A stretch of 42,162 nucleotides of DNA from Lactobacillus sp. CBA3606 (lineage in GTDB: Bacteria > Bacillota > Bacilli > Lactobacillales > Lactobacillaceae), in the NCBI RefSeq assembly GCF_002970935.1, contig NZ_CP027196.1:1-42162 (forward strand). Direction: 5' to 3'. Under the pieces are notes generated by a model. The model did not search any database. It was not told the origin of the DNA and saw only the letters and a program-made list of their open reading frames with translations. A program made the position numbers and the translations under genes. Below are positions 13,118-41,499 of the stretch, one piece after another (position 1 is the first letter of the stretch; each line of letters starts with the position of its first letter).

Positions 13118-13756
13118 TTGTGTATGGTCTATCAAAGAGACCAGGCAATCAAAAACTTTAAGCCGGAACCCTATTTTGAACTAAATGCGGAAATTGTAGC
13201 TAATCAGCAAAAATTCGTCGCGAAATTAGCCCCCTATCAGCGATTTAAAGACAAAGCAGGGCTAACGACATTCATGCAAGCTAAACACGTTCAGAAAGGC
13301 TCACAGGCTGGTTTAATCAAGGGCGTTCAAAACCAGGCTAAAAAACGTGCTAGTCCCCAACTATTCTCGCTATCCAGTCTGCAAAGTGCCATGAATAAAC
13401 GTTATCACGCCAGCGCCAGTCAAACCTTAGCGGCCATTCAGAGTTTATACGAAGCCAAGTACCTTAGTTATCCCCGCACCGATTGTGCTTACATCACTGA
13501 TGAAGAATTTGATTATTTAGTGGCTAATCTGACGAAGTATCTGGGTTTAGTCTCTAAGCCAGTCGCTTTAACCAATACCACCCCAAATAAGCGCTATGTT
13601 AATGGAAAAAAGGTTGAAGAACACTACGCCATTATCATGACTAAAGTCGTCCCGACTAAAGATCAATTAGCTACCTTACCTAAAATACAGCATCAAGTCT
13701 ATGACTTAGTTTTAAAAACGACGTTAGCGATGTTTGCTGATCCGTATGAGTACGAG
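13118..13756 (+). pseudogene. Type IA DNA topoisomerase (TopB/TraE-like), internal fragment
   Basis: About 213 codons of the core of a topoisomerase III-like enzyme. The segment VYQRDQAIKNFKPEPYFEL opens it and the catalytic tyrosine motif YLSYPRTDCAYITDEE is intact. The N-terminal Toprim domain (about the first 200 residues) is missing upstream of 13109, and the C-terminal zinc/tail region is cut by the IS256 at 13757; the last few codons of the open frame are IS sequence. Such genes usually lie next to the relaxase in conjugative modules. With both ends lost it cannot be a working enzyme. Confidence 0.88.
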
Positions 13757-15103
13757 GTAGCGTCAAGAATTTTGTGTAAATGAAATGCCTTCGTACATAT
13801 AATATGTATCTAACTTAAATAAATGATGCTTCCAAGGTGTCCTGGAGTCCTTTGAACCCTCGGTGGATCCGCTTCAGAGACTTCTCGTTATAAACATTAA
13901 ACTGAGAAACCAGGAAGCGATCCAGTGAATCTTCCGTTGGAAATTGTTCTTTGTGGTGGGTGGTGCGCTTGAGATGCTTATTAAAGTTCTCAATCAGGTT
14001 AGTGGAGTATAGTGATTGCCGGATAGCTGGTGGAAAGTCCATGAAAGTGAGTAAATTCGGCATTTTAAGCAGATCTTTGATTAATTTGGGATAGGTCTGA
14101 TGCCAGTTGTTGGCGAACTCATTCAGTTTCAGTTCGGCTGCTTCACGGTTGGCGGCCCGATGAACTTGTTTAAAGTCACTGATCACGGCCTTGCGGTCTT
14201 TTACGCGAACTTTGTTCATCAGATTCCGCCCAACATGAACCAGGCAACGTTGTCGTTTGGCTTTAAGGAAATGCCGATTCAAGCCTTCATCCAAACCAAC
14301 TAACCCATCGGCCACAAACAACAGCACATCTTTAACGCCCTGCTTGATCAAGGTTCCCAGCAGTTCAGTCCAGATTCCAGTCGATTCCGTTGGCGCCACT
14401 TGGTAGTTCAGCACTTCTTTCGTACCATCTGGACGAATGCCAATCGCAATATGAACGGCTTCTTTTTGAACGGTATCCCGCTTTAACGGCAAGTAAGTGG
14501 CATCTAAGAAGATGGCCGCATATTGTGAAGCCAGTCGACGTTGCTGGAAAGCTTGAACCTGTTCATTGACGGCTTTAGTCATGTTGGAAACCGTGGCTTG
14601 GGAGTAGTGAGCACCGGACATTTTCTCAATGAGTTCGGCAATTTCAGCAGTGGTCATTCCCTTGGTATACAACTGAATGACCGTTGTTTCTAAATTATCA
14701 CTGTGCCGACCGTAGGCTGGCAAGGCATGATTTTCAAACCGGCCATTGCGATCTCGAGGAATGGTTAAGTTAAGTTGGCCGTACTTCGTATCAAACGAGC
14801 GCTCATAACTGCCGTTGCGGTTATTACCAGTGTTAATCCCAGCGTATGAGTAGCGTTCGTAACCCAAAAACTCTGCCAATTCGGTTTGAAGTAGCTGGTT
14901 AATCGCAATTTCGAGGTGGTGACGAAAAACTTCGTCCAAATCTTGCTTTTGGGCTAGTGCAGCGATAATTTCTGTGGTAAGTTCATTCATGGGGAATGCC
15001 TCCTGTGATGTTTTCTGTGGTTACTAAATATCATAAGGGAAGGCATTCCCTATTTCTATACAATTCAGAAATCTTTTATGCATTTACACAAGATATTTTA
15101 CGC
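13757..15103 (-). mobile_element. Intact IS256 family element
   Basis: About 1347 bp. The two ends share agcgt and tcttgtgtaaatgcat-type sequence read inward (13757 side tagcgtcaagaattttgtgt, 15103 side agcgtaaaatatcttgtgta). The element sits in the topoisomerase gene. The exact outer base is uncertain by a few positions and I see no clear 8-9 bp target repeat. The half copy at 4301-4995 is in the opposite orientation. Confidence 0.85.
13815..14990 (-). CDS. IS256 (mutator) family transposase
   Basis: A 391-residue transposase, full length for the family. Its DDE elements are visible as AAIFLDATYLPLKRD (first Asp), LLFVADGLVGLDEGL (second Asp), and STNLIENFNKHLKRTTHHKE (Glu). The CLVHVGRNLMNKV segment is the mutator-type signature between the second Asp and the Glu. 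The ribosome binding site aggag lies just before ATG 14990. No lesion is seen, so the copy should be active. Confidence 0.95.
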   Translation of the reverse strand: MNELTTEIIAALAQKQDLDEVFRHHLEIAINQLLQTELAEFLGYERYSYAGINTGNNRNGSYERSFDTKYGQLNLTIPRDRNGRFENHALPAYGRHSDNLETTVIQLYTKGMTTAEIAELIEKMSGAHYSQATVSNMTKAVNEQVQAFQQRRLASQYAAIFLDATYLPLKRDTVQKEAVHIAIGIRPDGTKEVLNYQVAPTESTGIWTELLGTLIKQGVKDVLLFVADGLVGLDEGLNRHFLKAKRQRCLVHVGRNLMNKVRVKDRKAVISDFKQVHRAANREAAELKLNEFANNWHQTYPKLIKDLLKMPNLLTFMDFPPAIRQSLYSTNLIENFNKHLKRTTHHKEQFPTEDSLDRFLVSQFNVYNEKSLKRIHRGFKGLQDTLEASFI

Positions 15104-18025: not shown

Positions 18026-18976
18026 TTAGAAGTCATAGTCGCCGCTACTCATAGCTTCAGCATTACCCATTAGATAGCCAGCACCAACTTGTGAAAAGAA
18101 ATCATGATTGGCCGTTTCGGTTGAAATTCCGTTCATTACGATTGGGTTGATATCTTTAATCTCAGCATTGGGAAAGCGGGATTCAAAGCCCATATTTTGG
18201 AGCGCCTTGTTGGCGTTGTAGTGAACGAATTGTTTAACGTCTTCCGCTAACCCAATCGGCGCGTAAACTTCTTCGGTGAACGCAAACTCGTTCTCAAGGA
18301 GATCGTCGAGCAACTCATCCATCCACTTTTTGAATATTTTTTGTTCAGTCGCCGATAGCTCGTTATATCCCAATTGAAATTTGTAGCCGAGGTAGGTACC
18401 ATGAACAGATTCATCGCGGATCACCAGTTTGATAACTTCAGAAAGATTTGCCAGCTTATTGTTACCACGGTACCAAAGTGGGGTAAAAAAGTTGGTGTAG
18501 TACAAAATTCCTTCAAGAAAGACGCTTGCAACTTTCTTTTCAAGGTTGTTTCCCGTTTGATAAATATCATTGATCCGTTTGGCTTTGTATTGCATTCTGG
18601 GATTATTGTTCATCCATTTGAATACTTCGTCAACAGTGGCTTGATCGTTCAAAGATGTCAAAATAGTGCCGTAGCTTTTGGCATGAATTGACTCCATCAT
18701 CAAAAAGTCATTGAGGACTGCTGCTTCTTTTCGTGTCCGAACGTCGGGCCGCATCACGTCGACTCCTTCTTCGGATTGGAGAGTGTCCAGCAAGGCTAAT
18801 CCACCCACAACCCGATTGATAACCGATTTTTCGGTGCCAGAGAGTGTCCGCCAGTCCCGTAAATCATTAGAAACAGGTACTCGCGTATCCAGCCAGTATT
18901 GTGCCGTTGCTTTATCCCATACATATTCGTCAAGTTCGTCTTCGATGATGTCCCAATTAATTGTTTTATAGCTCAT
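18026..18976 (-). CDS. nrdF: Class Ib ribonucleotide reductase, small (radical) subunit
   Basis: A 316-residue subunit that carries the metal-tyrosyl radical needed by NrdE to reduce ribonucleoside diphosphates. All ligands are present: Asp64 (LLDTLQ), Glu95 and His98 with the radical Tyr102 (MESIHAKSY), Glu155 (FLEGILYY), and Glu189 and His192 (RDESVHGTYLG). The C-terminal tail SGDYDF is the NrdE-docking peptide. ATG 18976 has aaggag 10 bases upstream. It is the last gene of nrdI-nrdE-nrdF2-nrdF, 14 bases after nrdF2. In class Ib enzymes the cofactor is dimanganese or diiron and is assembled with help of NrdI. Confidence 0.97.
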   Translation of the reverse strand: MSYKTINWDIIEDELDEYVWDKATAQYWLDTRVPVSNDLRDWRTLSGTEKSVINRVVGGLALLDTLQSEEGVDVMRPDVRTRKEAAVLNDFLMMESIHAKSYGTILTSLNDQATVDEVFKWMNNNPRMQYKAKRINDIYQTGNNLEKKVASVFLEGILYYTNFFTPLWYRGNNKLANLSEVIKLVIRDESVHGTYLGYKFQLGYNELSATEQKIFKKWMDELLDDLLENEFAFTEEVYAPIGLAEDVKQFVHYNANKALQNMGFESRFPNAEIKDINPIVMNGISTETANHDFFSQVGAGYLMGNAEAMSSGDYDF

Positions 18977-18990
18977 TAGTTGAATACTCC

Positions 18991-19917
18991 TTAAAAGTCG
19001 TAGTCGTCATCGGTCATTTTTTCAGTGTCCGATTCATTGTTTGCAGCCGTTACCTGTTGCAAAAATTGATTTTGGTCAATCATCAGTTCTTTGAGTTGCG
19101 CCACTAGTGAAGACGGTTGAACTTCGTAGACAGCGTTAAAGCCAAGTGACATTAATGCATGATTGGCACCATAGGAGGCCAGATTGATGGCTTCGGTGGC
19201 ATCGTCAAGGTTAGCTTCTAAGAAGTCTTTTTCAGTTTGCATGAGTTGATCAAACTGTGTATTAATCCAATACTGCAGTTCGGTTTGATCACTTACAGTG
19301 AGTTCTTCAAATCTGAGGCGAAATTTGTAACCAATATAAGCACTAAAAAGGGCGCTACCGCGGAGAATATTAGCCAACATTTGGTAAGTATTGACGAGAG
19401 CCTGTGTTTGAAGTATTGTCCAGTATTTACCAAACGAGAGCCCAGTTTCAGTCAGAATAAAAAGGGCTTTTTTCTGTAAGGCCATATCGCTAGTGCTCAT
19501 TTGGGCTAGTTGGTCAATTTCAGCTTGCAGATTGGCATTGTCATCTGCCCAAGTAAAACTTTCACCGCCGTTACCCGGAATCAGAGCCCGGAAAATGGTC
19601 GTACAGCTTTTGGCATGGACTGATTTCATAAAGGTAATGGTGTTTAATACGGATTCTTCTTGTTGAGTTCGCCGATCGTGGCGAATAGCAGGGGTGCCAA
19701 CTTCTGATTGGTAGACGGCTAACATTGATGTACCTGTCAACATACGAGTAATGGCCTGTTGTTGAGTATCTGATAGCTGTTGCCAAGCCGTTTGATCATT
19801 CGTGATGGGAATCCGAATGTCCAACCAAAAGTTAGTGGTGAGTCGTTCCCACATGTATTTATCGAAATTATCTTTAATATCATCCCAGTTAATTGCTTTG
19901 TAGTATAAGTAGTCCAT
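18991..19917 (-). CDS. NrdF paralogue lacking the radical site (NrdF2)
   Basis: A 308-residue protein that aligns with the neighbouring NrdF along its whole length without gaps large enough to suggest decay. The cofactor site is lost: Asp64 is Ala67 (MLAVYQ), Glu95 is Lys98 and radical Tyr102 is Cys105 (MKSVHAKSC), Glu189 is Ser188 and His192 is Phe191 (RGSALFSAYIG). Only His101 and Glu157 remain. The NrdE-docking tail is kept (DDDYDF), as is the GYKFRLRFEEL helix after the ligand region. The frame is intact and has a ribosome binding site (aaggaga, 13 bases before ATG). It sits between nrdE and the active nrdF. A structural or regulatory partner of NrdF, comparable to yeast Rnr4, is my inference; a slowly decaying duplicate is the alternative. 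Confidence 0.88.
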   Translation of the reverse strand: MDYLYYKAINWDDIKDNFDKYMWERLTTNFWLDIRIPITNDQTAWQQLSDTQQQAITRMLTGTSMLAVYQSEVGTPAIRHDRRTQQEESVLNTITFMKSVHAKSCTTIFRALIPGNGGESFTWADDNANLQAEIDQLAQMSTSDMALQKKALFILTETGLSFGKYWTILQTQALVNTYQMLANILRGSALFSAYIGYKFRLRFEELTVSDQTELQYWINTQFDQLMQTEKDFLEANLDDATEAINLASYGANHALMSLGFNAVYEVQPSSLVAQLKELMIDQNQFLQQVTAANNESDTEKMTDDDYDF

Positions 19918-20023: not shown

Positions 20024-22192
20024 CTAGATCATGCATGATTCACATTCATTTGCCGTTTTAATTTCATCGTCTTCTGTAAACGTTCGAATGTAATAAAGTG
20101 ACTTAATGCCTTTTGTCCAGGCGTAATTCCGTAACCGGTTAAGGTCTCGGGTTGTCATCTTTAAATTGTTATTGTCCTTCCACTCGTAAAGGTCAGGTTT
20201 CAAAACTGAACGCATAAATAGTGTCAGACTCATGCCTTGATCAATGTGCTTTTGAGCTACGGCATAGGTGTCAATAATTTTTCGTTGATCAATATCATAT
20301 GCGGGTGTGTAGTAAGGCAAAGTTTCGTTAGACAGGTAAGGTGCTGGATAGAAGATTGAGCCTACCTTATTTTCCTGACGTTGTTCTACTAATTGTGTGA
20401 TTGGATGAAGTGATGCACTTGTTTCATTGACGTACGAAATTGACCCGTTCGGTGCCACAGCGAGTCTATTACGATGATAAAGGCCGCCAGTAATCACAGC
20501 TTGCTTGAGTGCCTTCCAATCTGTAACAGATGGTAATTTAATATTTTTGAAGATTTTTGCAACTTTGGTACTCTTAAATTTAAAGTCTGCGTTCAAGTAT
20601 TGATCGAAGTAACTGCCATCAGCGTACTTTGATTGGTCAAATTTAGCGAAGGTTTCGTGGCGTTCACGGGCAATTCGATTGCTCGTAACGAGTGAATAGT
20701 AGTTTAAAGCTAGGAAGTAGGCATCAGTAAATTCAAGGGCCTCTGGTGAGCCATACTCAATTTGGTGGCGTGCAAGGGCAGTATGCAGACCCATAGCCCC
20801 TAATCCAATCGTGTGGTAAAGTTCGTTACCATGTTTAACAGTCGGTACTTCCTTAACGTCGGTTGTGTCAGTTACGAGGGTGAGCGCACGAACAGCAACC
20901 TCAACTGAGTGACCGAAGTCCGGTGAGTCAATCATATTCATGATATTAGTTGATCCGAGATTACATGAAATATCGGTGCCAATTGTCTTGTACGATAGGT
21001 CATCATCAAGTTTTGACGGTTCTTGAGGCTGTAAGATCTCACTACAAAGGTTACTCATAATAATTTTGCCATCGACAGGGTTAGTTTGGTTGGCCGTATC
21101 AATGTTCAAGATGTAAGGATAACCAGATTCTTGTTGGAGTTGAGAAATCTTTTGTTCTAGTTTCCGCGCGTTAAAAACTGACTTCTTAATATTGGGGTTA
21201 GCGACCATGTTGTTATATTCTTTGGTGATATCAATGTAAGCAAATGGCGTACGATATTCACGTTCGACATCATAGGGGCTAAAAAGATACATTGGTTCGT
21301 TAGTCTTGAGTAATTCATAATATTTATCAGGAACAATCAAACCGAGGGACAAGGTCTTCACCCGAATTTTTTCGTCCGCATTTTCCTTTTTGGTATCCAG
21401 AAAATGTAAGATGTCAGGATGGAAGACGTTGAGATAAACCACTCCGGCGCCGTTCCGTTGCCCAAGTTGGTTACTGTAGCTAAATGAGTCTTCAAGTAAC
21501 TTCATCACTGGTACAACGCCAGACGAGGCGTTGGAAATCTGCTTAATAGGATCACCTGAGGCGCGCAAGTTTGACAGGTTAACGCCGACGCCCCCACCGA
21601 TTCGAGATAGTTGAAGGGCAGAATTAACGCCGCGTCCAATTGAGAGCATGGAGTCGGCCACATCGATTAAAAAACATGATACCATTTCACCGCGCCGTTT
21701 TTTACCCGCGTTGAGAAACGTGGGGGTGGCAGGCTGATAACGTTGTGAAATCAATTCATCGGCAACGTCATTGGCAAGTTGTTCATCACCATTAGCGAGA
21801 TAGAGGGCATTGAAGACGACGCGATCGACAAAGTCTTCCAAAAATTGCTGGCCATCATTAGTTTTCATGGCATATTGTGTGTAGAACTTGTAGGCACCGA
21901 GAAAGCTGCGAAAACGAAAGTGATGGTCTCTCATTTGGTCGAACAAGGACTGCACAAACTTGTGAGAGTATTGTTCCAGGATACTTGGATCGATATAATC
22001 TTCGTCAACCAAGTAATTTAACTTGGCATTTAACGAATCAAATTGCTTGGTCTTCGGTTTAACTGTCTCTTCGAAATAAGCCTTTAGGGCTTCTTGATCA
22101 TAATGTAGCGGAATTTCTCCGTTGCTTGGGATATTTACGAGGTTATTTAAGTAAAAATAGGTATTTTCCATTTCTGGGGTGCTAGTTACCAT
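20024..22192 (-). CDS. nrdE: Class Ib ribonucleotide reductase, large (catalytic) subunit
   Basis: A 722-residue subunit that reduces NDPs to dNDPs in the cytosol. The redox cysteine pair is in MVSCFLIDVAD and ISCNLGSTN, and the thiyl-radical site is in MSNLCSEI with its Asn and Glu. The radical-transfer tyrosine pair is IKSLYYIRTF, and the C-terminal shuttle cysteines are CESCMI. There is no ATP-cone at the N-terminus, as usual for class Ib. Start ATG 22192 follows the nrdI stop by 6 bases. The gene is preceded by nrdI and followed by nrdF2 and nrdF after a 106-bp gap. No nrdH glutaredoxin-like gene is in the window, so the reductant must come from the chromosome. Confidence 0.97.
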   Translation of the reverse strand: MVTSTPEMENTYFYLNNLVNIPSNGEIPLHYDQEALKAYFEETVKPKTKQFDSLNAKLNYLVDEDYIDPSILEQYSHKFVQSLFDQMRDHHFRFRSFLGAYKFYTQYAMKTNDGQQFLEDFVDRVVFNALYLANGDEQLANDVADELISQRYQPATPTFLNAGKKRRGEMVSCFLIDVADSMLSIGRGVNSALQLSRIGGGVGVNLSNLRASGDPIKQISNASSGVVPVMKLLEDSFSYSNQLGQRNGAGVVYLNVFHPDILHFLDTKKENADEKIRVKTLSLGLIVPDKYYELLKTNEPMYLFSPYDVEREYRTPFAYIDITKEYNNMVANPNIKKSVFNARKLEQKISQLQQESGYPYILNIDTANQTNPVDGKIIMSNLCSEILQPQEPSKLDDDLSYKTIGTDISCNLGSTNIMNMIDSPDFGHSVEVAVRALTLVTDTTDVKEVPTVKHGNELYHTIGLGAMGLHTALARHQIEYGSPEALEFTDAYFLALNYYSLVTSNRIARERHETFAKFDQSKYADGSYFDQYLNADFKFKSTKVAKIFKNIKLPSVTDWKALKQAVITGGLYHRNRLAVAPNGSISYVNETSASLHPITQLVEQRQENKVGSIFYPAPYLSNETLPYYTPAYDIDQRKIIDTYAVAQKHIDQGMSLTLFMRSVLKPDLYEWKDNNNLKMTTRDLNRLRNYAWTKGIKSLYYIRTFTEDDEIKTANECESCMI

Positions 22193-22198
22193 TAGGGA

Positions 22199-22657
22199 TT
22201 ACTCCTTCGTTGTTTGAAAACAAAATTGATTGCGATAGGTTAAGATGGCATCGGCAATGCGAGGAATGTCGTGTGCGGTGCCACGTAGCTCAAAATCGGT
22301 AATGTAAGGAAAATCGAAGCGTTTAGCATATTGTTTAGCCGTGAGTGCAAACTGCTTATTAAAATTACGATTACCGCTACCGATAATACCGTAGCAATGC
22401 TGGTAATTGCCTTCGTACGCGAGGTAATCTCCCAAAATAGTGGTTAATATTTCAGTATAACCGTTATTAACCCCATTACCACCTTTAAGAAAGGCTGGTA
22501 GGAAGGTAACAAACGGCTGGTCAAGAGTGGTGAATTCAGGGTGTTCTTTAACATTAATTGAACTAACCCGAACATGACGTTCTTTCTCAAAGTATGTTGT
22601 CAGTCTGCTAATAAAATATTTCGTGTTGCCGCTCAAACTGATGTAGAGAATATTTAT
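22199..22657 (-). CDS. nrdI: NrdI flavodoxin-like activator, non-canonical start
   Basis: A small flavoprotein that supplies oxidant to load the metal-radical cofactor of NrdF. Family features are the FMN loop SLSGNTKYF, FLPAFLKGGNGVNNGYTEI, and GIIGSGNRNF, ending in DFELRGTAHD. The family N-terminus INILYISLSGNT is encoded here, but the codon where ATG is expected is not ATG: the frame runs from a stop at about 22672 through Leu-Val-Thr-Glu-Thr and then ATA at 22657. The first standard alternative, TTG at 22636, lies inside the FMN loop and would delete the first strand. I set the start at the ATA by homology. Translation may be weak, or ATA/ATT may be used. Two NrdR boxes lie just upstream. 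Confidence 0.85.
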   Translation of the reverse strand: MNILYISLSGNTKYFISRLTTYFEKERHVRVSSINVKEHPEFTTLDQPFVTFLPAFLKGGNGVNNGYTEILTTILGDYLAYEGNYQHCYGIIGSGNRNFNKQFALTAKQYAKRFDFPYITDFELRGTAHDIPRIADAILTYRNQFCFQTTKE

Positions 22658-22684
22658 GGTTTCCGTAACTAATCATCGCCCTTT

Positions 22685-22739
22685 TTCTATATATAGTGGT
22701 TAGGCGATCATTATAGCACTATATGTGGTGTCTGTGCAA
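22685..22739 (-). promoter_or_regulatory. nrd promoter with two NrdR boxes
   Basis: Minus-strand promoter: TTGCAC at 22739-22734, 18 bases, TATAAT at 22715-22710. NrdR-like boxes lie at 22685-22700 (ttctatatatagtggt) and 22716-22731 (agcactatatgtggtg), start-to-start 31 bp, that is three helical turns, as in known NrdR operators. They bracket the -10, so a host-encoded NrdR repressor would block the operon when dATP is high. No nrdR gene is in the window. Confidence 0.8.
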
Positions 22740-27852: not shown

Positions 27853-29007
27853 TTGGAATTTTTAGGTACCTTGGTGATCATCTTGATTGCAACTAGTCTA
27901 TTTGGCCATCTAGCCTCTAGGGTTGGTATCCCAGCAGTGATCGGTCAATTATTTGTTGGAATTATTCTTGGCCCTGCGTTGTTGAATTGGGTTCGCGCCA
28001 ATGATTTTATCCATATTTTTTCAGAGATTGGGGTTATCATCTTAATGTTTATCGCCGGACTTGAGAGTGATCTTACATTGCTTAAAAAATATTTGCGTCC
28101 TAGCATAATTGTCGCGTTGTTAGGAGTTTTGATTCCAATGGTACTGATCTATCCAGTTGGTATTGTTTTTGGCTTGACACAATTTGAAAGCTTGTTTTTG
28201 AGCGTTATTTTTGCCGCAACGTCGGTTTCAATTTCAGTTGCTGTCATGAAAGAACTAAATTTACTTGATAGTAAGAGCGGTTCAACAGTCCTCGGTGCCG
28301 CGGTGGTTGACGATGTGCTAGCTGTCGTTTTACTTAGCATTATGGTCAGTTTAATAGGTACAAAGGCTGGTACGGATACCCAGATACCGCTAGCTCTGAC
28401 TTTTTTAGAGCAGCTAATTTACTTTGCCGCAATTTATTTCGTGATGCGTTTTATCGCCCCTCTCCTCGCTAGACTAGGCACCAAATTATTGAATCCAGTG
28501 GGACCTACTATAATGGCGATGATTTTGTGTTTTGGTATGGCATATATTGCAAATCTGATTGGACTGAGTGCAGTAATTGGGGCCTTTTTTGCAGGAATTG
28601 CGATTGCACAAACTCATGTAGCTCATGAAGTTGATCAAAGTATCGAACCAATCGGTTATGCGATTTTCATTCCTGTATTCTTCGTTTCAATTGGTTTAAG
28701 TATGTCACTAGCTGGCATAGAACACGATTTGTTATTAATTATCGTATTGACAATTGTGGCAACACTGACGAAACTATTAGGAGCGGGGAGTGGGGCTAAA
28801 TGGGCCGGATTCAGTTCGAATGAAGCTTACCTCGTTGGTGCAGGGATGGTCTCGCGTGGGGAAATGGCCTTGATTATCGCTCAAATAGGCTACCAATCCA
28901 AACTAATCAGTGATGATTACTATTCGGCAATTATCACTGCCATTATCCTAACAACGTTATTAGCACCATTACTACTCAAACATGCGGCTCGTCATATAAA
29001 CTACTAA
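27853..29007 (+). CDS. napA: Na+/H+ antiporter, CPA2 family (NapA-like)
   Basis: A 384-residue membrane antiporter with about 12-13 transmembrane segments. The conserved Asp pair is in GAAVVDDVLAVVLLSIM, the signature of electrogenic Na+/H+ exchangers in the KefB/NapA branch. The N-terminal ASRVGIPAVIGQLFVGIILGP is also typical. There is no C-terminal TrkA-N domain, so it is not a KefB/C potassium-efflux protein; the length equals that of Enterococcus hirae NapA. Start is TTG 27853 with gaggagg 7 bases upstream. It extrudes Na+ at the cost of the proton gradient. It sits next to the ClC gene and in the same region as kup and the betaine transporter, suggesting a salt-tolerance role. Confidence 0.9.
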   Translation: MEFLGTLVIILIATSLFGHLASRVGIPAVIGQLFVGIILGPALLNWVRANDFIHIFSEIGVIILMFIAGLESDLTLLKKYLRPSIIVALLGVLIPMVLIYPVGIVFGLTQFESLFLSVIFAATSVSISVAVMKELNLLDSKSGSTVLGAAVVDDVLAVVLLSIMVSLIGTKAGTDTQIPLALTFLEQLIYFAAIYFVMRFIAPLLARLGTKLLNPVGPTIMAMILCFGMAYIANLIGLSAVIGAFFAGIAIAQTHVAHEVDQSIEPIGYAIFIPVFFVSIGLSMSLAGIEHDLLLIIVLTIVATLTKLLGAGSGAKWAGFSSNEAYLVGAGMVSRGEMALIIAQIGYQSKLISDDYYSAIITAIILTTLLAPLLLKHAARHINY

Positions 29008-29129
29008 AACATTTTAGCGGTATGACACCCCTTCTCTGTGAAAAATAACTACTAGATTTCATCGAGATATTGCCTAGTTTAATTAAGTACTAAATTATAT
29101 AATATTGGTTATAATGGAGGATTAGTTAT

Positions 29130-30698
29130 TTGATACAGCTTGTAAAAGAAAAATTTGACGTTACTCGTTTGCGATTTGTTTTACTCGGCCTGCTTGTGGG
29201 TTTAATGAGTGGCACCGTTGTTAGCTTATTTCGCTATTGTATTGAGATAGGGCTGCACTATAGTCGATTGGTATATAGATACTTACGAATCGCGCCGTTT
29301 GTTTGGTGGGAATGGGCATTGTTGATAGGCATCAACCTTGGTTTAGCGTTAATTGTGGCTCGACTTCTCAAGAGAGAACCTTATATCGCTGGTTCTGGAA
29401 TTCCGCAAGTTGAAGGTCAATTGGCTGGTGAATTGGAAATGCACTGGTGGTCAATTCTTTGGCGAAAATTTATCGGTGGTATTCTGGCATTGGGACCTGG
29501 ATTATTTCTCGGACGAGAAGGACCAGCGATTCAATTAAGTGCGTCAGTTGGTCAAGGTTTCGCTTCTGAGTTTAAGTTATCAGGAACTGATCGCCGACTA
29601 CTAATTGCATCAGGCGCCGCTGCTGGATTAGCAGCAGCGTTTAATGCCCCCATTGCTGGAACTCTATTTGTCTTAGAAGAGATTTACCATAATTTTTCAC
29701 CGCTGGTTTGGTTAACAGCATTAGCCGGAGCAATTGGTTCAAATTTTATTTCGCTGAATGTTTTCGGACTTGTTCCCGTGTTACATTTAAGTTATTCACG
29801 TAGTTTACCAGTATCAAATTATTGGCACTTAATTTTACTCGGCATTGTTTTGGGATTATTTGGTTACTTATATCAACGGGTCTTGTTAGTTATGCCTAGG
29901 TGGTATCATCAATTGACACATTTGCCACGCCCAATACAAGGTATCGTACCATTTCTGCTGGTAATTTTAGTTGGTTACTTTTCGCCAAATTTACTCGGTG
30001 GTGGTAATGGCTTAATTTTGGGATTTGGCCAGCATGTTCCACCTTTGTTTGTACTAATTGCAATTTTTATTATACGATTCGTCTTTTCAATGATTTCATA
30101 TGGTTCCGGATTACCTGGCGGTATTTTCTTGCCGATTCTTTCTTTAGGTGCTGTGATTGGTGCGGTTTATGGCGTCTTAATGAATCAACTAGGATTATTA
30201 TCGCATGTCTATATCATGAACCTAATCATTTTTTCCATGGCCGGTTACTTTGCTGGAATCGGAAAAGCTCCCTTCACAGCTATCTTGCTGGTAACAGAAA
30301 TGGTTGGCAATTTAACACATTTAATGCCATTAGCAGTCATATCGTTAACTGCTTACCTTGTTGTTGATTTATTAGGCGGTGCACCAATCTATGAAGCATT
30401 GCTTAAGCAGATGACAATGCCTAAAACTGTTCAGCAACTTCATCGACCTGATCATTTGGAAATACCGGTTTTCTTTGGCAGTCCCTTAAACGGCAAAATG
30501 GTCCGAGACATGCCATGGCCTAAAGAAGCACTGCTCATTGGAATCCGGCGTGGCGAACAAGAAGTGATTCCACATGGTGACACCTTGATTCATGAAGGTG
30601 ATACGTTAGTACTGTTAACTGATACAACCCAACGACCCCAAGTTAAACAACGGATTGATGCATTATTAGCAACCTTAGAAAAAAAGCACCAAGACTAA
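29130..30698 (+). CDS. ClC family chloride/proton transporter with TrkA-C domain
   Basis: A 522-residue membrane protein. ClC signatures are GSGIPQVEGQ (anion-site serine), GREGPAIQL with the gating Glu, FNAPIAGTLFVLEEIY with the internal proton Glu, and GSGLPGGIFLPIL. The two glutamates suggest a coupled Cl-/H+ exchanger rather than a channel. Residues about 435-515 form a cytosolic TrkA-C (RCK-C) regulatory domain (MVRDMPWPKEALLIGIRRG, GDTLIHEGDTLVLL). Start TTG 29130 has tggagg 9 bases upstream, and a TATAAT lies at 29098. It would provide charge compensation for the neighbouring cation transporters or acid tolerance; that role is inference. Confidence 0.92.
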   Translation: MIQLVKEKFDVTRLRFVLLGLLVGLMSGTVVSLFRYCIEIGLHYSRLVYRYLRIAPFVWWEWALLIGINLGLALIVARLLKREPYIAGSGIPQVEGQLAGELEMHWWSILWRKFIGGILALGPGLFLGREGPAIQLSASVGQGFASEFKLSGTDRRLLIASGAAAGLAAAFNAPIAGTLFVLEEIYHNFSPLVWLTALAGAIGSNFISLNVFGLVPVLHLSYSRSLPVSNYWHLILLGIVLGLFGYLYQRVLLVMPRWYHQLTHLPRPIQGIVPFLLVILVGYFSPNLLGGGNGLILGFGQHVPPLFVLIAIFIIRFVFSMISYGSGLPGGIFLPILSLGAVIGAVYGVLMNQLGLLSHVYIMNLIIFSMAGYFAGIGKAPFTAILLVTEMVGNLTHLMPLAVISLTAYLVVDLLGGAPIYEALLKQMTMPKTVQQLHRPDHLEIPVFFGSPLNGKMVRDMPWPKEALLIGIRRGEQEVIPHGDTLIHEGDTLVLLTDTTQRPQVKQRIDALLATLEKKHQD

Positions 30699-33431: not shown

Positions 33432-35468
33432 ATGAATAAGCAACTAGAACGTGTTTCTTTTGCGGGGGCACTTGTTACTTTAGGAATTGTGTACGGTGAT
33501 ATTGGCACTTCACCATTGTATGTTATGAATGCATTGATTGGTGACGCCGGTAAAATGGGAAATATTTCTCCCAATTACGTGATTGGATCGATCTCGTTGA
33601 TTTTTTGGACATTAATGATCATTACAACGTTGAAGTATGTTGTCATTGCAATGCAAGCCGATAATAAGCGTGAGGGCGGAATTTTTGCTTTATATGCATT
33701 GGTTCGAAAAAATTCAAAATGGTTAATTTGGCCAGCCTTGATTGGCGGGGCGGCCATTTTGGCCGATGGAACATTAACTCCTGCAGTAACTGTGACTTCA
33801 GCCATTGAGGGATTAAAAAAACAACACCTTGGCCCTGTGGTGTTTAGTAATTCTCAACATAACGTCTTGATTATCACAACAGTTGTTCTACTCGTATTAT
33901 TTATGATTCAACATTTTGGAACAGGTATGATTGGGAAATCCTTTGGACCAGTGATGATTTTATGGTTTGGCTTTTTGGCTGTCTTTGGAATCGTTAATCT
34001 AATCAATTATCCAATGATATTGAAGGCTATTTCTCCTTATTATGCAATTAGGATACTATTCAGTCCAGTTAACAAAGTGGGAATCTTTATACTTGGAAGT
34101 ATCTTTTTGGCAACCACAGGAGCAGAGGCTTTATATTCCGATATGGGTCACGTTGGCAAGCAGAATATTTATGTAACATGGCCACTAGTATATAGTACCC
34201 TATTTTTAAATTACTTAGGTCAAGGTGCTTGGATAATTAGACATGCAGGTGATACTGCTTACAGGAACTTATCGAACTTAAATCCTTTTTATGAAATGCT
34301 CCCCGGAACTTGGCGCCTAGTTGGCATTTTGCTAGCCACACTCGCTGCAATTATTGCCTCTCAAGCGTTGATTACGGGTTCTTACACTTTAGTCGATGAA
34401 GCAATTGGCTTAAAATTTTTACCTAGAATGGTTATTAGACATCCAAGTAATATAAAAAATCAAATTTATATTGCAACTGTTAACTGGATACTATGTATAA
34501 TAACAATTAGTGTAGTCTGGTTCTTTGGTAGTTCACAAAAAATGGAGGCCGCGTATGGTTTAGCGATCACTATTACCATGCTTATGACTACTGTGCTTTT
34601 GCATGAATTCTTAAAGAAACACCTGGCTAAGGGAACAGCACTTATAATTGCCTTGTTTTTTGGTTTTATTGAGTTAATCTTTCTAATTTCAAGTTTGGTT
34701 AAGTTTATTCATGGCGGTTATGTTACGTTAACAATCATGTTGGGCATTCTTTATATTATGTGGCTTTGGTACTTTGGAAATAAACGAAGAGAACATTATG
34801 AGAAAGAAAGCGAGTATGTTTCACTTCTTGACTATCGTGATCAACTCTCTAAATTAAGCGCAGACAATACAGTACCTTTGTTCACGACTAACTTAGTGTA
34901 TATGACTAAAATTAAGGGTGATTACCAAATTAAGCGTAGCACCATGTATTCTATTCTCGACAGACAACCTAAAAGAGCTAAAGTTTATTGGTTTGTTACA
35001 GTCAATGAAACCAATGCACCTTATGAAAGTAATTATACAGTTGATTTACTTGAGACGCATAATGTTGTTAACGTTCAACTTTACTTAGGGTTTAGGAAAT
35101 CTCAATCCGTTAGTGTCTATTTACATCAAATTGTAAATCATCTAGTGGAACAAGGTATTTTAGAACCACAAATACCCACGTATTCAACAGAGCGACAACG
35201 GAAAGTCGGCGACTTTAAGTTTGTTATTATAAAGGAACAACCAGCAGATTTAATTGTCAATGATAAGTTAAGCTCGTTAGATAGAAGATTGATTGGCGGG
35301 CGCATCTATTTGCAGAAAATTACGGCCTCACCTATTTCATGGTATGGTTTGGAGTTTAGCAATGTCATAGAAGAAAGTTCTCCGTTATTTATTACTCAAG
35401 ATCAGGATCAATACTTAATCCAAAAGAAAATTTATCATCGAGGCAGATTAAGTAAGACTGAAAAATGA
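33432..35468 (+). CDS. kup: KUP/HAK/KT potassium uptake protein
   Basis: A 678-residue K+:H+ symporter of the Kup family. The signature [14 protein letters not shown] is at residues 18-31; [20 protein letters not shown] and [16 protein letters not shown] follow. Twelve transmembrane segments occupy residues about 10-455, and a cytosolic tail of about 210 residues follows. Length is typical. ATG 33432 has ttggaggc just upstream. No c-di-AMP riboswitch was recognised in the 114-bp leader. It takes up K+ as the first response to osmotic upshift; with the Na+/H+ antiporter, ClC and betaine transporter this forms a consistent osmotic stress set. Confidence 0.96.
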
Positions 35469-36725: not shown

Positions 36726-37454
36726 CACCTCGACACCCTCATCGCAGTCAACCAGCGTAAGTTAGCTAAGCTTAAGGCACTTAAACAGGGCTATTTGCAG
36801 AAATTGTTCCCCAAAAATGGGAGCAAGTTCCCAGAATTAAGATTTTTAGGGTTTGCTGACGCTTGGGAACAGCGTAAGTTCTTCGACAACATTAGACGTA
36901 CAGTAGATTTTCGTGGACGTACTCCCAAAAAACTGGATATGGATTGGAGCGAGTCTGGATATCTTGCCCTTTCAGCTCTTAATGTAAAAAATGGTTATAT
37001 TGATCCATCTGCTGATGCACATTATGGAAATCAAAAACTATATGATAAGTGGATGACTGGAAAAGAACTTTATAAGGGCCAAGTATTATTTACCACAGAG
37101 GCACCAATGGGAAATGTGGCACAAATACCGGACAACAACAAATATATTCTCAGTCAACGAACAATCGCTTTTGATGTTGCTTCAGATAAAATCACAAATG
37201 ATTTCTTGGCTGTCTTGTTACGTTCGCCGAAATCATTTAATGAATTATCATCCTTATCAAGCGGCGGTACTGCGAAAGGTGTTAGTCAAAGATCTTTATC
37301 ACAGTTCAAAGTAACACTACCTAAAAGTTTACAAGAACAAAAGAAAATTGGCATTTTTTTCAAACAACTCGACAAGACTATCGCTCTTTATCAGCGTAAA
37401 CTTGAAAAACTCCAGGAACTCAAAAAAGGATATCTACAAAAGATGTTTTGCTGA
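36726..37454 (+). pseudogene. hsdS: Type I restriction specificity subunit HsdS, C-terminal half
   Basis: About 242 codons. The frame starts directly after the IS30 end with LDTLIAVNQRKLAKLKALKQ (central conserved helix), followed by the second target recognition domain (FADAWEQRKFFDNIRR to VSQRSLSQFKVTLPK) and the distal conserved helix (FFKQLDKTIALYQRKLEKLQ, GYLQKMFC). HsdS chooses the DNA sequence recognised by HsdM/HsdR. The first recognition domain is lost, and no hsdM or hsdR is in the window. A product could start at the TTG at 36795 (219 residues). Half-size HsdS proteins can in principle dimerise, but here I treat it as a fragment. Confidence 0.85.
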
Positions 37455-39463: not shown

Positions 39464-40303
39464 TTATTTGGATGTTTTGTTGAACGATTGTGTGATTCGA
39501 TCCAAAATAATAGCTACAATAACCACAGCAATTCCTGCGGCAAATCCTGCCCCGGCATCATTACGCCCCACAGCAAAGTAAACCTGAGTTCCTAAACCAA
39601 GGGCGCCAATCATTGATGCAATCACGACCATTGAAAGTCCAAGCATCATCGTTTGATTAATTCCGGACATTATTGTTGTTTTTGCTAGTGGTAACTGTAA
39701 TTTGATTAGCTTTTGCCAGCTGGTCGAGCCAAAGGAATCCGCTACCTCGATCAAGTCACTTGGCACCTGCCGGATTCCCAAGTTTGTCATTCGCACTGTC
39801 GGTGGCGTCGCAAAAATCACTGAAGCCAACACCCCCGGTACCATCCCGATACCAAAAAATGAAACGGCCGGTATTAGATAAACAAACGCTGGCAAGGTCT
39901 GCATGAAGTCAAGAATTGGTTTGATTACGATCTCAGCTCTTGAACTTTTTGCCATCCAAATTCCAAGTGGAATCCCAACAACGATTGCAATCAAACTAGA
40001 CGACAAAACTAACGTCAAGGTCTGGGTCATATCACGCCAGTATCCTAAGTTCCAGATCAATAACAGCCCCAAAACTTCAAACACCATGAAACTAATTTTC
40101 TTTTGTCCTCGTTTAACCCAGTACGTGAGTGCTAAGACCACCAAGATAAAGACCCATTGCGGCAAGAAGTCAAAAGCCCATTGAATACCGTCAATGATTA
40201 CCTGGAAAAAGATCGTCACACTATAAAAAAATCCGGTAAATTGACTCAGCCAGTCAACACCTGAGTTGATCCATTCCGCTAAAGGTATTTGTCCAATATT
40301 CAT
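39464..40303 (-). CDS. opuAB: Glycine betaine ABC transporter permease (OpuAB-like)
   Basis: A 279-residue permease with about seven transmembrane segments, starting MNIGQIPLAEWINSGVDWLS. The ATPase-contact (EAA-type) loop is VADSFGSTSWQKLIKLQLPL, preceded by PPTVRMTNLGIRQVP. It forms the membrane channel with two copies per transporter. Its ATG overlaps the opuAA stop by one base (TAATG), so the two are translationally coupled. Confidence 0.95.
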   Translation of the reverse strand: MNIGQIPLAEWINSGVDWLSQFTGFFYSVTIFFQVIIDGIQWAFDFLPQWVFILVVLALTYWVKRGQKKISFMVFEVLGLLLIWNLGYWRDMTQTLTLVLSSSLIAIVVGIPLGIWMAKSSRAEIVIKPILDFMQTLPAFVYLIPAVSFFGIGMVPGVLASVIFATPPTVRMTNLGIRQVPSDLIEVADSFGSTSWQKLIKLQLPLAKTTIMSGINQTMMLGLSMVVIASMIGALGLGTQVYFAVGRNDAGAGFAAGIAVVIVAIILDRITQSFNKTSK

Positions 40304-41499
40304 TAAGCACTCACCTCTTCCCCAGCGATAGCCGCCAAAACAGAACTCCGTAGAATGATGCCTAGTAGATGATCGTCATCATCCAACACGACATAAGGAA
40401 TTGCTGCCTTCGAAATATCGTTAATCAATGCATTGATTGGCATATCCACACTTGTCTTAGGCACGTCTGTCCTAAGGACTGACTTCAGGTCTTCACTGCC
40501 CTTCTTAATCAGATCCGAAACATCATGCGCATCGGCAAAACCCACGAATTTGTTGTCATTATCAACCACGTATATTGAAGAGATATCGTTGGCTCGCATT
40601 CTCCGCAAAGCCACCCGTGGTCCAGCCTTTCCAATATTAACCACCTGGGCCTGCGTCATTACACTACTTGCCGTCAGGACCTTTGTCCGGTCGACCCCTT
40701 CGATGAAGCGTTCTACGTAATCATTAGCCGGGTGAGTCAAAATATCTTCCGGATTATCAATTTGTTCGATATGGCCATCACGCATGATCATAATCCTATC
40801 CCCTAATTTCAAAGCTTCGTTCAGGTCATGGCCAATAAAAATGATCGTTTTATGCATTTTTTCTTGAATTTGCAATAACAAATCCTGCATTTCTTTCCGA
40901 TATAACGGATCCAAGGCCGAAAATGCCTCGTCCATCAACAGAATCTCGGCATCATTGGCCAAAGCGCGCGCGAGACCAACCCGCTGCTGCATCCCGCCTG
41001 ATAACTGATCTGGATATTGGTCGTCATACCCGGTCAAGCCGACTAGTGTCAATGCTTCATGAGCTTTCCTGTTTCGTACATCTAACGGAAACTTTTTAAG
41101 CTCCAATCCATAAGCCGCATTTTGTAATACGGACTTATGCGGAAACAAGGCAAAATTTTGAAAAACCATGCCGATCTTATCTTGGCGCAAGTGACGTAAT
41201 TCTTCCTTACTGAGGCCCATCACACCTTGTTCATCGATTTCAATATCCCCATCAGTCGAATTTATCAAGCGGTTGATCATTCGGATAATCGTAGACTTTC
41301 CACTTCCAGACAGCCCCATGATTACAAACAGTTCACCTTCATTAACAGCAAAACTAGCTTGATTAACTCCAACAGTACAACCTGTCTGCGAAAGGATCTC
41401 TGCTTTAGACTTTCCCTCACGCAACAATTTTTTTGCTAGAGATATTTGCTTTCCAAAAATCTTAGTTACATTTTTAACTTTAACTTTTTCTACCAACAT
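40303..41499 (-). CDS. opuAA: Glycine betaine ABC transporter ATPase with tandem CBS (OpuAA-like)
   Basis: A 398-residue ATPase that powers betaine import. Walker A is GLSGSGKSTIIRMINRL, the Q-loop VFQNFALFPHKS, the signature LSGGMQQRVGLARAL, Walker B EILLMDEAFSALD and the switch His in FIGHDLNEAL. Residues about 280-395 hold two CBS motifs (ANDISSIYVVDNDNKFVGFA, IPYVVLDDDDHLLGI), which in this family sense ionic strength or bind c-di-AMP. ATG 41499 has ggaggt 5 bases upstream. It is the first gene of the operon opuAA-opuAB-opuAC, and its leader contains the 18-bp inverted repeat at 41521-41561. Confidence 0.96.
   Translation of the reverse strand: MLVEKVKVKNVTKIFGKQISLAKKLLREGKSKAEILSQTGCTVGVNQASFAVNEGELFVIMGLSGSGKSTIIRMINRLINSTDGDIEIDEQGVMGLSKEELRHLRQDKIGMVFQNFALFPHKSVLQNAAYGLELKKFPLDVRNRKAHEALTLVGLTGYDDQYPDQLSGGMQQRVGLARALANDAEILLMDEAFSALDPLYRKEMQDLLLQIQEKMHKTIIFIGHDLNEALKLGDRIMIMRDGHIEQIDNPEDILTHPANDYVERFIEGVDRTKVLTASSVMTQAQVVNIGKAGPRVALRRMRANDISSIYVVDNDNKFVGFADAHDVSDLIKKGSEDLKSVLRTDVPKTSVDMPINALINDISKAAIPYVVLDDDDHLLGIILRSSVLAAIAGEEVSA

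Follow-up and report, generated by a model that had tools for sequence, protein, structure and literature searches.

The need for two active R2 halves in ribonucleotide reductase (RNR), and the role of an R2 partner without metal ligands, have been studied mainly with yeast Rnr4. This protein is a full-length R2 paralogue that lacks the diiron ligands and stands beside an active R2, and it is reported to form a beta-beta' heterodimer in yeast (PMC3824934; PMC3267527). In apicomplexans, R2_e2 (PfR4) belongs to a long-branched sister R2 clade that has lost the tail Tyr, and in some members the radical Tyr, with the C-terminal R1-binding motif kept, and is described in an alpha2-beta-beta' complex of P. 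falciparum (PMC3824934). R2_e2 keeps most of the metal ligands, two ligand positions being set apart as less conserved in a figure legend of the same paper (PMC3824934). Inactive bacterial R2 forms are described as well: a truncated E. coli beta-prime polypeptide, for which a heterodimer with half-site reactivity is reported, and the short NrdB of Candidatus Liberibacter asiaticus, a 125-aa 3'-end copy for which the same was proposed (PMC5154197). Metal ligands are also replaced in the NrdF-like R2 of class Ie (VPK/QSK), which has NrdI in its operon, is catalytic and keeps the radical Tyr and the tail Tyr (PMC8463856).

The window, that is, the whole stretch of DNA analysed, is a contig of 42,162 bases, one of four (C3) in a 2.56-Mb genome, the largest contig of which has its own nrdF. 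The genes nrdI, nrdE, nrdF2 and nrdF are arranged consecutively in this order on its minus strand, nrdF2 being abbreviated below as F2 and nrdF as F1. The features are as follows.

nrdF (F1), 18026..18976, minus strand: 316 aa, with all ligands and the radical Tyr; group seen only beside F2 in the genomes searched
nrdF2 (F2), 18991..19917, minus strand: NrdF paralogue without the catalytic residues, 308 aa, proposed beta-prime subunit
NrdF2 C-terminal docking tail M301-F308 (MTDDDYDF), 18994..19017, minus strand: M, the D-Y pair and the final F in 20 of 20 F2 rows
Degenerate helix G187-S-A-L-F191, 19345..19359, minus strand: replaces D-E-S-V-H (radical-transfer Asp and metal ligands) of NrdF
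nrdE, 20024..22192, minus strand: class Ib catalytic subunit, 722 aa, so annotated on homologous plasmids
nrdI, 22199..22636, minus strand: flavodoxin-like activase; coordinates counted from a TTG, the real start may be an ACG at 22664-22666
NrdR-box-like site 2, 22687..22696, minus strand: CTATATATAG, no mismatch to the assumed consensus
NrdR-box-like site 1, 22719..22728, minus strand: CCACATATAG, two mismatches, 32 bp from site 2

The nrdF2 reading frame (18991-19917, minus strand) encodes 308 aa with neither stop nor frameshift, and the plus strand of the same segment carries many stops. The protein matches Pfam Ribonuc_red_sm (PF00268) with 142 bits (cut-off, 33.6), and scores 191 bits against TIGR04171, the NCBIfam model of class Ib NrdF, below the cut-off of 355; the adjacent NrdF scores 429. 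The nearest solved relative by sequence is a standard class Ib NrdF, that of S. sanguinis (PDB 4n83, E 4e-51), from which NrdF2 differs in lacking the dimetal ligands and the radical relay. The best AlphaFold2 model, built from a 12-row alignment, reached pLDDT 70.1 (52-62 for the other four models) and pTM 0.74, a low-to-moderate confidence that should suffice for the fold and not for the pocket; in a fold search with this model, 4n83 ranked first with a TM-score of 0.86 by target. The original prediction of an intact, full-length NrdF homologue is thus borne out by the open frame, the Pfam and PDB matches and the fold.

Residues were read directly against the adjacent NrdF. D64, E95, H98, Y102, E155, D188, E189 and H192 of NrdF are A67, K98, H101, C105, E157, G187, S188 and F191 in NrdF2, so that the five substitutions first named (A67, K98, S188, F191 and C105) are all correct. 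From the ligand set D, E, H, E, E, H only H101 and E157 are still present, the others being changed (D64A, E95K, E189S, H192F). Two further losses were absent from the earlier list: the radical-transfer Asp188 of NrdF is replaced by Gly187, and Tyr301 of the NrdF tail motif GAGYLMG is missing. The radical Tyr, the transfer Asp and the C-terminal relay Tyr are thereby all gone (C105, G187, no Tyr at the 301 equivalent). The terminal DYDF is retained, as had been claimed for the NrdE-docking tail. We take D188 to be the equivalent of E. coli D237, W28 that of W48 and, by comparison with the E. coli tail, the Tyr of GAGYLMG that of Y356. An equivalent of Y356 is present in all characterised class I RNRs, according to a review (PMC8463856), and the R2 C-terminus is the part that binds R1 (PMC3824934). 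Because the ligands, the transfer Asp and the tail Tyr are missing, NrdF2 should, by established R2 chemistry, be unable to assemble the normal dimetal-tyrosyl cofactor or to relay a radical, and would be catalytically inactive.

The same positions were followed in a table of 20 F2 rows, six of them of the window type, together with 17 F1 rows and 30 rows of stand-alone NrdF, two of which are the same gene. Two class Ie-type NrdF rows, L101 (G291) and L102 (G379), were set apart; they carry V, P and K at ligand positions, and an ordinary NrdF is located elsewhere in the genome. In F2 the Asp is lost in all 20 rows both at the D64 position (A14 S4 Y1 T1) and at the D188 position (G10 N10), as is the Tyr at the Tyr301 position (N8 F5 I3 S2 K1 L1), and all three residues are present in 17 of 17 F1 and 30 of 30 stand-alone NrdF rows. 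All 20 F2 rows retain W28 and, in the docking tail, the M, D, Y and F, and each row has an open frame of normal length. A total of 98 positions are invariant in F1 and stand-alone NrdF, 18 of which are also invariant in F2. Near-copies outside the 20-row table (L004-L011, L013, L016, L019) agree at residues 67, 98, 187, 188 and 191. Cys in place of the radical Tyr had been singled out as a point of special interest. The radical position is, however, Cys in 11 and Tyr in five of 16 near relatives of NrdF2, and Tyr, Val or Ile in distant F2s; since it varies in this way, Cys carries no special message, and it is a recent, lineage-limited state.

These rows bear on the possibility that NrdF2 is a catalytic R2 with an unconventional initiator, such as the metal-free DOPA radical of class Ie. 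The ligands are indeed replaced in F2, in the window type with Lys98 at the Glu95 position, and class Ie R2 likewise substitutes ligands, with Lys at metal site 1 (PMC8463856). The Lys is nevertheless confined to the window type, Glu being kept in the other 14 of 20 F2 rows, and the two class Ie-type rows, which serve as a control within the table (C_L101 and C_L102), show another pattern: E95, E155 and E189 are lost, with D64, Y102 and D188 kept. Class Ie replaces three Glu by VPK or QSK and keeps the Asp and the Tyr, whereas NrdF2 has lost D64 and D188, keeps E155 and has Cys at the Tyr; several F2 have Cys, Val or Ile at that position, and the tail Tyr found throughout the characterised class I enzymes is absent from every F2 row. 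On this residue pattern the class Ie reading was rejected and is very improbable, and NrdF2 reads as neither a catalytic NrdF nor a class Ie protein. NrdF2 is also neither of the truncated bacterial forms as these are described (PMC5154197), being full-length and separately encoded.

Of the 17 loci given by the species-genome scan, L020 is a weak match of 47 residues; the other 16 are relatives of F2, with identities of 87-100%. The hosts of the 16 are Lactiplantibacillus, Levilactobacillus, Loigolactobacillus, Secundilactobacillus, Paucilactobacillus, Periweissella, Liquorilactobacillus and an uncultured Lactobacillus. Among 150 related genomes, a near copy of F2 is present in 10, the window's own included, G025 has a copy at 41% identity, and G133 and G140 carry a more diverged F2 type. 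Another diverged version, in identical gene order, is located on plasmids of Enterococcus and Lactococcus. The F2-F1 tandem occurs on both plasmids and chromosome-sized contigs across Lactobacillales, so that the linked pair, the recurrence of which had been proposed as a check, was found widely and beyond Lactobacillaceae. Megablast matches F2 to 165 plasmid records, in 163 of which at least 80% of the query is covered, and for F1 the corresponding numbers are 166 and 165; the comparison is one of totals and genus tallies and not of record-by-record lists. In a class-level sample of 398 genomes, no match listed from outside Lactobacillales exceeds 200 bits, and none of 589 matching phage records reaches 60% identity to F2. 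One viral contig has the window-type operon (L137/L143), the remaining viral matches being other NrdFs; in phage contigs L138-L142, nrdF is split in pieces by interruption or frameshift. For plasmid pGdh442, NC_009435, the entries NrdE, NrdF and NrdI appear in a published table (PMC3019208); the record also holds an F2-like gene, 59.6% identical to the Enterococcus F2, that goes unmentioned in the passages concerned. The Enterococcus and Lactococcus plasmids L051, L052 and L053 have a Crp/Fnr regulator gene upstream of their nrd operon, and L053 has a tpx gene separating F2 from F1. On an Enterococcus faecium plasmid (L054, 5500-7377), nrdI and the start of an F2-like gene are followed by an IS30 transposase gene, and neither nrdE nor F1 was found in this 12.3-kb stretch. 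Remnants of an F1-like C-terminus, 45-53 residues long with stop codons, were noted at G212:C24:86449-86610 and G222:C1:1641008-1641142, and are apparent relics of a lost tandem operon.

Selection was estimated as the ratio of mean dN to mean dS (Nei-Gojobori). For 28 pairs of eight window-type loci, the values are 0.114 for F2, 0.035 for F1 and 0.036 for nrdE; for 15 pairs of six f2-family loci, they are 0.130 for F2 and 0.062 for nrdE, one saturated F1 pair leaving no F1 mean. The test of selection that had been called for therefore gives purifying selection on F2 in both sets. For one F2 pair that is near-identical (L012-L013, with 12 changes) the value is 0.53. The dN/dS of F2 is about three times that of F1, which is counted against the reading as a beta-prime subunit. 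This faster change, the loss of catalytic residues and the interrupted F2-like copy on the Enterococcus faecium plasmid would be expected of a decaying, functionless duplicate. Against such decay stand the values of 0.11-0.13, the open frames of normal length in 20 rows, the tail and N-terminal motifs fixed across families and the presence of F2 in nearly as many plasmid records as F1; where decay is seen (L054, G212, G222), it takes the operon and not F2 alone. With neither a broken frame nor neutral evolution, and with its retention on plasmids, NrdF2 is extremely improbable as a relic, and this reading was rejected. Nor is the gene a product of chance, since 165 plasmid records match it and its dN/dS is 0.114.

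The association of F2 with F1 was examined in 395 Lactobacillales genomes by two profiles, A1, made of ten F2 proteins, and A3, made of 11 F1 proteins, with up to five candidates scored per genome for A1. F2 adjoining F1 was found by A1 in 14 of the 395 genomes, in four families by code (f1, f2, f3, f5). With F1-type NrdF taken as at least 625 bits, A3 gave 14 matches at 626-650 bits and then 532 and lower, and the genomes with F1 are the same 14 as those with F2, neither type occurring alone among the 395. The gap in F1 scores is partly built in, because nine of the 11 A3 rows come from these 14 genomes (L015 being the G039 copy); G040, G156, G171, G192 and G208 are outside the profile. The F2s of G306, G371 and G414 do not outscore ordinary NrdF and were identified by their position beside F1, so that a diverged stand-alone F2 could be missed. 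G212 and G222, with two A3 matches each, have one ordinary NrdF and one stop-ridden remnant apiece and no F2. In G346, nrdI, F2 and F1 stand together, and no nrdE was found in the 17-kb locus.

An inactive R2 homodimer could also act as a competitive regulator or decoy, occupying the docking site of NrdE, either its own or the chromosomal one, and lowering RNR activity. The docking tail is kept in every F2 row while the radical-transfer residues are lost, and the F2 tail is of the plasmid enzyme's type, the chromosomal NrdF of the window's genome ending in ..DYDIGEPGDSL; both points would suit a competitor. Such a role, however, leaves unexplained why F2 travels constantly with one NrdF type (14 of 14 genomes) and why the G346 F2 stays with F1 though its locus yielded no nrdE, and co-transcription at equal dose with the enzyme to be blocked would be an odd design. 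The competitor reading, the main rival, is unlikely. The strict co-occurrence of F1 and F2 could alternatively come from operon neighbours moving together.

To follow conservation along F2, the mean pairwise identity within a set of ten F2 was divided, segment by segment, by the value for the ten partner F1. The ratio is high for residues 4-15 (1.03), 76-90 (0.95), the tail, 310-316 (0.92), 91-106 (0.68) and 16-45 (0.67), and poor for 46-75 (0.42), 231-260 (0.29), 166-180 (0.26) and 286-302 (0.17). F2 keeps the N-terminus with helix alphaA, the alphaB-alphaC junction and the first part of alphaC. K95, E105 and E174 of human RRM2 presumably correspond to F1 positions 21, 31 and 100, given an assumed numbering of the human Trp and Tyr. 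According to a published prediction, K95 of one molecule pairs with E105 and E174 of the other across the dimer (PMC6642173). On this partly assumed numbering, the three positions all fall inside the better-kept F2 segments. At position 21, all 17 F1 have D and 19 of 20 F2 have E; K100 is invariant in F1 and in all 20 F2; position 31 is Thr in all 17 F1 and Ile in seven of 20 F2. F1 and stand-alone NrdF can be told apart at 23 near-fixed positions, of which six lie in the segment 14-33. At position 83, all 17 F1 have K, all 20 F2 have Q and 26 of the 30 other NrdF have H. The pattern looks like that of an interface made asymmetric. In Bacillus anthracis NrdF, the core interface residue P71 on alphaB (PMC6754363) falls in the poorly conserved segment 46-75. 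The poorly kept alphaB segment would suit a competitor with no need of an F1 interface, and it counts, with the Ile at position 31 and with the interface mapping being by analogy, against pairing; the conservation of residues 76-106 is again left unexplained by a competitor.

Like Rnr4, NrdF2 is a full-length R2 paralogue without ligands, under selection and accompanied by an active-type R2. Three features favour a heterodimer with the adjacent NrdF over a pure competitor: F2 is strictly paired with one NrdF type, it retains the docking tail, and its N-terminus and alphaB-alphaC junction are conserved. We consider that NrdF2 is probably a dedicated non-catalytic beta-prime (R2-prime) subunit that pairs with F1 in a plasmid-borne alpha2-beta-beta' class Ib RNR. 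NrdF2 and NrdF would form a beta-beta' heterodimer, in which NrdF2 may steady or position NrdF for NrdI-driven cofactor assembly and dock one side of the NrdE dimer, and the holoenzyme would be of the alpha2-beta-beta' form with a single radical-competent face. Its use in yeast, the P. falciparum complex that contains R2_e2 (PMC3824934) and the half-site reactivity reported for an E. coli beta-beta' form (PMC5154197) make such an enzyme plausible. F1 may well be active alone.

NrdF2 could otherwise serve in assembly alone, meeting NrdF and/or NrdI transiently for manganese loading or superoxide handling and staying outside the holoenzyme. The order nrdI-nrdE-F2-F1, kept in 21 of the 22 tandem loci examined, would agree with this, and a chaperone role has been proposed for Rnr4 (PMC3824934). 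An assembly factor would nevertheless have no need of the NrdE-docking tail, which is among the best-kept parts of F2, and we regard this reading as quite unlikely. The original interpretation is partly supported: of the three roles offered, namely heterodimer, chaperone for cofactor loading and competitor at the docking site, the first is the one favoured over the pure competitor, chaperone-only and competitor being retained as lesser rivals.

The comparison with Rnr4 made in the original prediction holds as an analogy, and R2_e2 is an equally close parallel. Rnr4 is, however, of eukaryotic class Ia with a reported heterodimer; F2 is homologous to class Ib NrdF, shares its operon with nrdI, and has a heterodimer that we infer. 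R2_e2 also belongs to a class Ia eukaryote and not to class Ib bacteria, and it keeps an Asp ligand that is lost in 20 of 20 F2 (PMC3824934). In the best reading NrdF2 acts in the manner of Rnr4 and R2_e2, although its sequence is that of a bacterial class Ib NrdF homologue.

Trees were made from class Ib/Ie-type NrdF rows only. With LG+G4 and 69 rows, F2 forms one group (99/98), F1 forms one group (100/98) and F2 joins stand-alone NrdF, not F1 (95/89). With a mixture model and 42 rows, the ligand columns and the C-terminus being removed, the values are 75/86 for F2, 99/99 for F1 and 85/87 for F2 with stand-alone NrdF. F2 as a duplicate of the adjacent NrdF is thus not favoured by these trees. 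An F1+F2 clade is not rejected by the AU test (p 0.078), and long branches are in play. A single origin of F2 is strong in one tree and weak in the other, two origins being a possible alternative. Judged by eye, F1 and F2 each divide into the same three sets, the first made up of the window type with G025, G306, G371 and G414, the second of the f2 family and the third of Enterococcus, Lactococcus and G346. In F2 the last set joins the f2 family (100/99); in F1 it is unresolved with LG+G4 or joins the window type weakly (85/49, mixture model). This differing deep branching of the Enterococcus/Lactococcus sets would count against pairing.

The operon DNA is found near-identical in 172 plasmid records, 119 of them from Lactiplantibacillus and 160 covering at least 80% of the 5.1-kb query, and for this reason the window contig is very likely a plasmid. 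Genes of ion- or osmotic-stress type, namely a Na+/H+ exchanger, a CLC channel with TrkA-C, a K+ transporter and an ABC ATPase with CBS domains, are located at 27853-30698, 33432-35468 and 40303-41499, and gene fragments at 13118-13783 and 36795-37454 encode a partial DNA topoisomerase and a single type I restriction specificity domain. Within the same pairs (L012-L018 against the window), dS differs strongly among F2, F1 and nrdE; for the window and L016 it is 0.01 in F1, 0.57 in F2 and 0.35 in nrdE. Such unequal dS among neighbouring genes is a sign of mosaic recombination inside the operon.

Upstream of nrdI, boxes were sought with an assumed NrdR consensus. The scan of the window alone is non-significant (four matches against 2.05 expected, four being reached in 16 of 100 shuffles). 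In 21 of 22 tandem loci, which are related to each other, two sites with up to two mismatches lie 31-32 bp apart upstream of nrdI, an arrangement shared by 46 of 4,400 base-shuffled segments. This recurrent spacing is a better sign of NrdR boxes than the window scan. L055 has no such pair, and the chromosomal nrdE locus L136 showed none either. A search of the 22 tandem loci for FNR-type sites, made with a single pattern, gave no match. The nrdI frame encoding the first beta strand (INILYISLSGN; window 22636-22680, minus strand, and L004-L014, L016-L019) contains no ATG, GTG or TTG. Where L015 has an ATG, the window has an ACG (22664-22666), just upstream of which stands an out-of-frame ATG. 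This suggests an ACG start of nrdI, or other means of holding NrdI low.

No published account of F2 was found in the open-access literature searched, and a subscription paper could exist. In plasmid records F2 is annotated as ribonucleotide-diphosphate reductase subunit beta, which misleads, the residues for the radical source being missing. The chances are about even that the operon represents an undescribed subtype of class Ib RNR, with an obligate asymmetric NrdF-NrdF2 radical subunit and one radical-competent face. If this is true, Lactobacillales would be a third lineage, besides yeast and apicomplexans, with the alpha2-beta-beta' design, here spread on plasmids and chromosome-sized contigs. 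A two-gene bacterial version in easily grown food bacteria would make the question of the ligand-less R2 partner testable by simple co-expression.
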